62,445 nucleotides of DNA from an uncultured Porphyromonadaceae bacterium (GTDB taxonomy: Bacteria > Bacteroidota > Bacteroidia > Bacteroidales > Muribaculaceae): NCBI GenBank assembly GCA_947178305.1, contig CAMWXV010000003.1, forward strand, positions 1 to 62,445. The letters run 5' to 3'. The notes below the pieces were generated by a model, which saw only the letters and a list, made by a program, of their open reading frames with translations, was not told the origin of the DNA and did no database searches. Below, piece after piece: positions 35,040 to 36,886 of the stretch; positions within the stretch are counted from its first letter, which is position 1, and every line of letters begins with the position of its first letter. The position numbers and the translations under genes were made by a program.

Positions 35040-35059
35040 AACATAACACATCAACACAC

Positions 35060-35099
35060 AAAGTGACCAATCCTATATGGATTTGGTCACTTTGTTTTT
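35060..35099 (+). terminator. Intrinsic terminator after the small OMP gene
   Basis: AAAGTGACCAA...TTGGTCACTTT then TGTTTTT. Confidence 0.85.
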
Positions 35100-35121
35100 A
35101 TTCTGCAAAGAACTATCTTTG
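35091..35121 (+). promoter_or_regulatory. Promoter of the Crp/Fnr gene (TTTG-N19-TATCTTTG)
   Basis: TTTG 35091-35094, TATCTTTG 35114-35121; -33 overlaps the upstream terminator tail. Confidence 0.75.
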
Positions 35122-35129
35122 CATTCAAC

Positions 35130-35717
35130 ATGGCAGCAAACATACAGGACATACCAAACATAGTGAACTTCATCCGTCAGGCATGGCCTGTTGGCAATGA
35201 GTCTTTGAACCTATTGGCAGCACATATGTTACCAAAGAAATTTCCACGTCGCCATAAGTTGGTTAGCGAAGGGCACATGGAGCATATGGTATGGTTCTTG
35301 GAAAAAGGAATGACCCGAAGCTACTGGCTTGTGGACGGCGAAGAAATCACCACATCTTTTTCTATAGCCGGATGTGTGGTGTTCAGTATGGACGAGGTGT
35401 ACTACTCACGACCAAGCATGGAGTTTGTGGAAAGCATTGAACCAATGGAAGCCTATGGAGTGTCCATCAAATCACTCATGACCCTTATTGCTGACAATAT
35501 TGAGCTATGCAATTGGTGGAGAGTGATACATCAAAACGAATACCGACGTCTACACCAATCACACAAGGAGCGACTCACCCTTGATGCGGCAGAAAGATAC
35601 AAGGAGTTTTTTCGTCAATTTCCTGAGGTGTGCCGCCGGGCACGACTCACCGACATTGCCTCATACCTGGGCATAGCGCCGGCAACACTCAGCCGCATAC
35701 GTCGCCACAAAATTTGA
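35130..35717 (+). CDS. Crp/Fnr-family transcriptional regulator
   Basis: cNMP-binding-like N-terminal region plus C-terminal HTH RARLTDIASYLGIAPATLSRIRR. Confidence 0.85.
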   Translation: MAANIQDIPNIVNFIRQAWPVGNESLNLLAAHMLPKKFPRRHKLVSEGHMEHMVWFLEKGMTRSYWLVDGEEITTSFSIAGCVVFSMDEVYYSRPSMEFVESIEPMEAYGVSIKSLMTLIADNIELCNWWRVIHQNEYRRLHQSHKERLTLDAAERYKEFFRQFPEVCRRARLTDIASYLGIAPATLSRIRRHKI

Positions 35718-35730
35718 CCTATGTCAAATT
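35711..35730. promoter_or_regulatory. Perfect inverted repeat AATTTGAC-CTAT-GTCAAATT, candidate regulator site
   Basis: 8-bp perfect arms, 4-nt spacer, overlaps the stop of the Crp/Fnr gene, upstream of a TAATTTTG -7 box (35750-35757). Confidence 0.6.
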
Positions 35731-35764
35731 CTGTATCCATTTCATTGCGTAATTTTGTGGCCGC

Positions 35765-36886
35765 ATGAAAACAACAACCATTCAACCACGATTTGACATT
35801 CTTGACGGCCTCCGAGGTGTGGCCGCAATACTTGTGATATGGTATCACTTCTTTGAAGGTTTTGCCACTTCACCTACAGACCAAATGATGAACCATGGGT
35901 ACCTGGCCGTGGATTTCTTCTTCGTATTGTCGGGCTTTGTGATAGGTTATGCCTATGACAACCGATGGAAAAACGGCAGAATCACCACTTCCGGATTCAT
36001 GCTACGCCGCGTTATCAGGCTTCATCCAATGGTGGTGCTCAGTGTGATTCTCGGTGCTCTCGCGTTTTGGCTACAAGGCAGCGTGAAATGGGACGGCACA
36101 CCGGTGTCCGCGTCCATGCTTCTTCTCGCATTGGCTCTTGGCCTAATTCTTATACCAGTGCTTCCCGGAACCGAATTCGATGTAAGAGGCAACGGGGAGA
36201 TGTTCCCTCTGAACGGCCCATCATGGTCTCTGTTTTTTGAATACATCGGCAGTATACTTTATGCCGTGGTATTGCATAAGCTGAATCGCCGTGCGCTCAC
36301 ATGCGTAGTCTTATTGTCGGGAATTGGGCTTACTGCCTGCGGTTTAGGCAACATGTCCGGAGCATACCACCTTGGAATGGGATGGAGCATTGCTGACAGT
36401 GGATGGTTGGGCGGATTCCTACGAATGATATTCTCGTTCAGCATAGGCCTGCTGATGACACGCATGTTCCGTCCACGTCACATCAAAGGTGCATTCTGGA
36501 TATGCAGCATTCTTATATCCGCCATATTGGCATGCCCTTATGTAGGAGGAACAAATCCGGTGATAACCAACGCTGTTTACGACCTTATATGCACACTGTT
36601 CATATTTCCGGTAATAGTATATATAGGAGCTTGCGGTGTCACTACCGACCGATTCTCCACTTCTGTATGCAAATTCATAGGACAACTGTCATACCCGGTA
36701 TATATAATTCATTATCCCGTAATGTACCTTTTCTACCATTGGGTATGGTCAAACAATCTGTGTTTCAATAAAATATGGTGGGTGTGCTTTCTTCTGCTCA
36801 CAGGTATCATAGCTATGGCATGGGCGGCTCTCAAACTATATGACGAACCTGTACGCCGCCGTCTCAGCACCCGCTTTTTGCAATAA
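35765..36886 (+). CDS. Acyltransferase family 3 membrane protein
   Basis: FDILDGLRGVAAILVIWYHFFEGF; LAVDFFFVLSGFVIGYAYD. Confidence 0.92.
   Translation: MKTTTIQPRFDILDGLRGVAAILVIWYHFFEGFATSPTDQMMNHGYLAVDFFFVLSGFVIGYAYDNRWKNGRITTSGFMLRRVIRLHPMVVLSVILGALAFWLQGSVKWDGTPVSASMLLLALALGLILIPVLPGTEFDVRGNGEMFPLNGPSWSLFFEYIGSILYAVVLHKLNRRALTCVVLLSGIGLTACGLGNMSGAYHLGMGWSIADSGWLGGFLRMIFSFSIGLLMTRMFRPRHIKGAFWICSILISAILACPYVGGTNPVITNAVYDLICTLFIFPVIVYIGACGVTTDRFSTSVCKFIGQLSYPVYIIHYPVMYLFYHWVWSNNLCFNKIWWVCFLLLTGIIAMAWAALKLYDEPVRRRLSTRFLQ

Follow-up and report, generated by a model that had tools for sequence, protein, structure and literature searches.

Regulators of the CRP/FNR superfamily combine an N-terminal double-stranded beta-roll with a long dimer helix and a C-terminal helix-turn-helix, and their canonical activation position is -41.5. 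In CRP, cAMP is contacted by E72, R82 and S83 of the phosphate-binding cassette, and in the oxygen sensor FNR a [4Fe-4S] cluster is held by four cysteines. The nearest known system to the case below is the local HcpR or HcpR2–hcp regulon, known from Bacteroides, Porphyromonas, deltaproteobacteria and cyanobacteria (PMC1274295). The regulator adjoins its target, the predicted regulon is a single gene in most Bacteroides, and the site is TTGAC-N4-GTCAA in HcpR1 and the cyanobacterial cases, a sequence that goes with Ser or Pro at CRP position 180 (PMC1274295). As to the core promoters of Bacteroidota, Bacteroides fragilis promoters carry TTTG at -33 (PMC7366714), and start-site mapping in Flavobacterium places TAnnTTTG at -12 to -5 (PMC9723704).

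Here, we describe a regulator and an acyltransferase gene that probably form a local CRP/FNR activator system closest in logic to HcpR/hcp; our literature search found no paper on the pair. Like HcpR and HcpR2, the regulator lies beside its predicted target, lacks the FNR cysteine motif, has Ser/Pro at CRP position 180 and, as far as scanned, would have a one-gene regulon; with HcpR1 it also shares the TTGAC-N4-GTCAA site. It differs in its target, an acyltransferase instead of hcp, and linkage to hcp was not found. HcpR2 in particular has the site GTAAC-N4-GTTAC and also binds heme in Bacteroides and Porphyromonas (PMC13370916, PMC12040651); our comparison with these groups is one of sites, targets and regulator features. 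Compared with the class II promoters (-41.5) of E. coli FNR and CRP, the fold and the predicted geometry are the same and, as for FNR, quasi-palindromic TTGA-type half-sites are separated by a 4-nt spacer; however, the promoter belongs to another sigma factor and has another core (TAnnTTTG at -7, no -35), and the regulator lacks the cAMP-contact residues and the Fe-S cysteine set. The nearest solved relative by sequence is 3DN7, a "cyclic nucleotide binding regulatory protein" of Cytophaga hutchinsonii with the same short architecture (194 aa), but the identity is about 20% and its database entry names no target or site.

Results

The locus and its proteins

The locus lies within a 62,445-nt stretch of a contig from an uncultured Porphyromonadaceae bacterium, referred to as the window. 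Its elements are as follows:

35114..35121, + strand: -7 box TATCTTTG in the promoter of the regulator gene itself, from a sequence scan and orthologue comparison
35130..35717, + strand: CRP/FNR-superfamily regulator, 195 aa, of an orthologous group spread over Bacteroidales (AlphaFold2, Foldseek, 3DN7 profile match, orthologues)
35711..35730, no strand: predicted regulator binding site, core TTTGAC-CTAT-GTCAAA at 35713-35728, predicted centre -41.5, regulator stop codon inside
35750..35757, + strand: -7 box TAATTTTG of a sigma-A (sigmaABfr) promoter, exactly 21 nt past the site core, box position after PMC9723704
35762, + strand: predicted transcription start, from the box position (PMC9723704), with a leader of about 3 nt
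35765..36886, + strand: acyltransferase-3 membrane protein, 373 aa, predicted target, from PF01757 and co-linear orthologues

Re-reading of the window sequence agreed with the first-pass annotation, which had reported a perfect 8+4+8 palindrome overlapping the stop codon of the regulator: AATTTGAC-CTAT-GTCAAATT spans 35711-35730 with the TGA at 35715-35717 inside it, and the -7 box TAATTTTG at 35750-35757 is followed by the acyltransferase ATG at 35765. On comparative sequence grounds, we consider it probable (about 0.86) that the palindrome is the operator of the adjacent CRP/FNR-type regulator and serves class II activation of the acyltransferase promoter.

The regulator is recognised weakly by Pfam and NCBIfam, with 17.9 bits to Pfam cNMP_binding under the cut-off of 27.5. 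Its profile matches 3DN7 of Cytophaga at E = 2e-22, and its AlphaFold2 model (pLDDT 96.4, pTM 0.89), which has MtbCRP (E about 1e-12), FNR (1e-10) and 3DN7 among its Foldseek matches, shows the predicted protein to have the CRP/FNR fold. At the positions of CRP E72, R82 and S83, the 62 orthologues have S86 and S96 without exception and mostly E97; none of their cysteines is invariant, and the window protein has other residues in the two columns where N-terminal cysteines are most common. As the cAMP contacts and invariant cysteines are missing, the regulator is neither a CRP nor an FNR in ligand terms, and sensing by cAMP or an Fe-S cluster was rejected. The residues at CRP positions 180 and 181, mostly P/L/Q and S/P/A and never R/E, are in line with the Ser/Pro-180 rule for TTGAC-N4-GTCAA (PMC1274295).

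The downstream protein matches PF01757 at E = 9.8e-32 and 110.7 bits, well over the curated cut-off of 31. It carries the motifs R-x10-H (RGVAAILVIWYH) and RRVIR, and given its family membership it presumably modifies an envelope glycan or lipid. The gene linked to the regulator is a PF01757 acyltransferase in nearly all regulator orthologues.

Several further elements were seen around the pair. Just before the regulator's own -7 box, at 35058-35095, a perfect 13-bp stem with a T tract behind it probably serves as the terminator for the outer-membrane-like gene upstream. This box is itself overlapped by a second perfect 8+4+8 palindrome, TGCAAAGA-ACTA-TCTTTGCA at 35104-35123, whose conservation was not seen in orthologues. 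An 11-nt perfect inverted repeat, GCCACAAAATT / AATTTTGTGGC (35704-35714 and 35751-35761, 36 nt apart), joins the end of the regulator gene to the -7 box region; it is probably due to chance because, by eye, it was not seen in the orthologous sequences. Autoregulation was considered and rejected, as no related site was found near the regulator's own promoter and the -7 boxes of such promoters are not conserved in orthologues.

Conservation of the site

Perfect 8+4+8 repeats occur six times in the window against a mean of 1.15 in shuffles, and with six such repeats present we rejected perfect symmetry alone as a sign of significance. The evidence that stands for a binding site is conservation, not palindromy. 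Orthologues of the regulator, found at 51-66% identity in family genomes and named genomes across Bacteroidales, form a conserved pair with the acyltransferase-3 gene, in most cases co-linear behind the regulator. TTTGAY-N4-RNCAAA or a close variant lies between the genes wherever they are adjacent in the family sample (27 of 27 pairs) and in 61 of 62 adjacent pairs of a second, order-wide sample that partly overlaps the first, the exception being Coprobacter secundus. Loss of the palindrome in relatives keeping both genes, which the first-pass annotation had named as evidence against its reading, is thus not what we observed. Against a consensus relaxed after the first sites had been seen, four of the 61 order-wide sites score 14 and the rest 15 or more. 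The perfection of the palindrome holds for the window copy and not for the family, in which the consensus TTTGAYRTAGGACAAA is a quasi-palindrome; the window core is the exact inversion of TTTGACATAGGTCAAA, a perfect variant carried by several relatives.

The aligned logo shows two conserved blocks, the site and the -7 box, and weak conservation elsewhere, with the T-rich stretch 3' of the site also conserved to some degree. In 60 aligned loci, T, A, T, T and G of TAnnTTTG are at 100% and the third T of TTTG at 96%. The gap between the core and TAnnTTTG is 21 nt in 26 of the 27 family pairs and 22 nt in the other, and in the order-wide sample 21 nt in 60 and 22 nt in one, despite a stop-to-ATG distance ranging from 47 to 157 nt in the family pairs.

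A symmetric sequence overlapping a stop codon might instead be an RNA element that terminates the regulator gene or forms a 3'-end hairpin. The window copy folds at -5.9 kcal/mol and a T-rich tract stands behind many copies, yet the median MFE is only -2.5 kcal/mol and the complementarity of the arms equals the expectation from independent columns, giving no sign of compensation. Among conserved sites, the distance to the stop codon varies from -23 to +80 nt while that to the -7 box is fixed, and acyltransferase promoters keep the site even at a long distance from the regulator gene. Since the half-sites vary independently, we favour a DNA site over an RNA hairpin; the RNA reading, whose arms lack co-variation and whose position tracks the promoter and not the stop codon, was rejected as highly improbable.

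Promoter geometry

With a 21-nt gap and the box at -12 to -5 (PMC9723704), the centre of the site is predicted at -41.5, the classical class II position. This agrees with the first-pass annotation, which had put the centre about 40 nt upstream of the predicted start and suggested a class II activator, and the 21-nt gap was found to be nearly invariant in both the family and order-wide samples. The expectations for a class II promoter, a centre at -41.5 and fixed spacing to the core promoter, thus agree with the locus, the start being a predicted one. The predicted leader of the acyltransferase mRNA (35757-35765 region) is about 3 nt, and about 1 nt in one orthologue (L002), leaving room for near-leaderless translation in some species; the leader is 20-100 nt in many other orthologues.

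Measured against Bacteroidota sigma-A promoters, the promoter has TAnnTTTG at -7 and lacks TTTG at about -33: no TTTG was found 18-22 nt upstream of the -7 box in the window, and the right half of the site occupies the position that the -33 TTTG has in Bacteroides fragilis promoters (PMC7366714). The first-pass annotation had taken the absence of this element to make activator dependence plausible. The absence itself was confirmed, with TTTG at about -33 in 0 of 30 promoters with the regulator, but it is weak evidence for an activator because only 2 of 22 boxed acyltransferase promoters without the regulator have it; as the other 20 also lack TTTG, we rejected the missing element as proof of activator dependence. 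On the aligned sequences, the argument for activation lies in the invariant spacing, not in the absent -33 element.

The overlap with the -33 region could also suit a repressor, as a bound dimer of the linked regulator might exclude RNA polymerase. Base-exact spacing is not needed for repression, yet nearly every site keeps the 21 nt as the flanks drift; the same 21 nt recur in other regulator groups of the superfamily, and -41.5 is where CRP/FNR proteins canonically activate. We therefore regard repression as unlikely, though the least improbable of the alternatives, and retain class II activation as the preferred reading.

Site, regulator and target in natural comparisons

Composites of core, gap and -7 box score 14-18 of 18 in all 31 family genomes with the regulator. 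In 32 acyltransferase genomes without a regulator match, defined as no match at E <= 1e-25 in genomes that are partly incomplete, the score is 10-14 with a median of 11, as against a shuffle mean of about 11. The single borderline case among these (L084, score 14) has a sequence that looks like a decayed site. In the acyltransferase tree, regulator presence switches about 10 times, and all six independent comparisons on well-supported branches match site presence (sign test p = 0.031, with a site/no-site threshold that omitted two borderline rows of score 14). The site thus co-occurs with the regulator.

These data also bear on the idea that a CRP/FNR protein other than the linked one binds the site. 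Genomes contain several CRP/FNR paralogues, TTGAC-N4-GTCAA is a site type common within the superfamily (PMC1274295), and a handful of exact composites are found at other genes with no linked regulator close by. However, the site tracks the linked orthologue (31/31 when it is present, no more than 1/32 when it is not, and 6/6 independent pairs), and paralogous regulator groups own differing adjacent sites, which leaves binding by another family member quite improbable.

Separation of the genes shows which of the two the site belongs to. In four genomes, the acyltransferase lies apart from the regulator (12 kb, 3 kb, 7 kb and divergent, and on a different contig). Each of the four has the site at its acyltransferase promoter, again with a gap of 21 nt, and none has it behind the regulator gene. 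The site stays with the target gene, not with that of the regulator. The first-pass description of a self-contained regulator/target pair therefore holds for most genomes, where the genes are adjacent, but not for these four, in which any action would be in trans. Two cases of gene decay fit this picture, as the site is kept in one genome with a broken regulator (L113) and in another with a broken acyltransferase (L114). In two further genomes it stands in front of a different acyltransferase-like gene, the orthologous one being missing in L208 and a second such gene having been inserted in L152.

Extent of the regulon and the 21-nt spacing elsewhere

Genome-wide counts were obtained by pattern searches. 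The scan for TTTGAC-N4-GTCAAA suggested in the first-pass annotation returned the window copy as the sole exact core in the 1.96-Mb genome. The composite of core, N21 and TAnnTTTG matches once exactly and never with a single mismatch; when up to three mismatches are allowed, the two strands together give 18 matches, compared with 8 for a reversed control, 17 of the 18 having two or three mismatches. A larger regulon in this genome was rejected for want of a second exact or one-mismatch composite and with few matches at 2-3 mismatches, and the regulon would, as far as scanned, be a single target. Across 397 family genomes, a slightly degenerate composite has 20 exact matches against none for the reversed control pattern, and 13 of the 20 are the acyltransferase promoter of the pair.

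The other matches and the paralogous regulators show the same spacing with other sites and targets, the gene names at non-acyltransferase composite matches being assigned by eye and the small multidrug-resistance (SMR) transporter label judged from sequence only. The exact TTTGAC-N4-GTCAAA-N21-TAnnTTTG lies between another CRP/FNR-like gene and a large secreted-looking protein (~800 aa) in two loci (L220, L223) and before similar secreted-looking proteins, with the CRP/FNR-like gene not in view, in two others (L221, L222). Three copies of one site, TTTGATTyAAATCAAA, are found at the 21-nt gap, two of them about 70 nt before a hexosaminidase-like gene (L224, L226) and one at a contig end (L225). 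Paralogous regulators with the helix GITQQSLSRIR have the dyad TTTAACATAGGGTAAA at the same gap, and those with GITQVSLSRIR the dyad TTTATCAAATGTAAAA, before SMR-like transporter genes. Several of the CRP/FNR paralogues L017-L028 diverge from an SMR-like transporter gene, with TTTATC-N4-GTAAAA 21 nt from the transporter's -7 box on one side and 25 nt from the box of the regulator on the other.

This arrangement is seen in at least five groups that differ in site or target: the acyltransferase, the L015/L016/L029 group, the SMR-type transporter group, the secreted proteins beside another CRP/FNR gene and the hexosaminidase-like gene. Changes in the recognition helix match those in the half-site: CRP position 180 is mostly P or L with TTTG and Q with TTTA. 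We see about even odds that TTTnnC-N4-GnnAAA, exactly 21 nt and TAnnTTTG form a general class II grammar of Bacteroidota that exposes the targets of orphan CRP/FNR proteins.

Discussion

In the preferred reading, a dimer of the regulator would bind TTTGAC-N4-GTCAAA (centre -41.5) in the acyltransferase promoter, cover the place of the -33 element and contact RNA polymerase directly, as in class II activation. Responding to some non-cAMP signal, it would turn on one membrane acyltransferase, which presumably acylates an envelope glycan or lipid. Binding by the linked regulator, activation, the non-cAMP signal and the acyl substrate are all inferred.

The pair is present in cultured species, namely Bacteroides faecis, Phocaeicola plebeius, Parabacteroides gordonii and Parabacteroides goldsteinii, and is thus testable in anaerobic laboratories, with natural controls on offer in the separated genes, the regulator-less genomes and the broken regulator. 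In gut Bacteroidales, binding site and promoter position have been defined for few transcription activators, and the promoters of these bacteria are unlike the E. coli model; here, comparative data fix a site to a base-exact position and link it to one regulator and one target. The 21-nt rule in paralogous groups offers a cheap means of predicting targets for other orphan CRP/FNR proteins and, if the grammar is true, the targets of many such regulators could be read from sequence.
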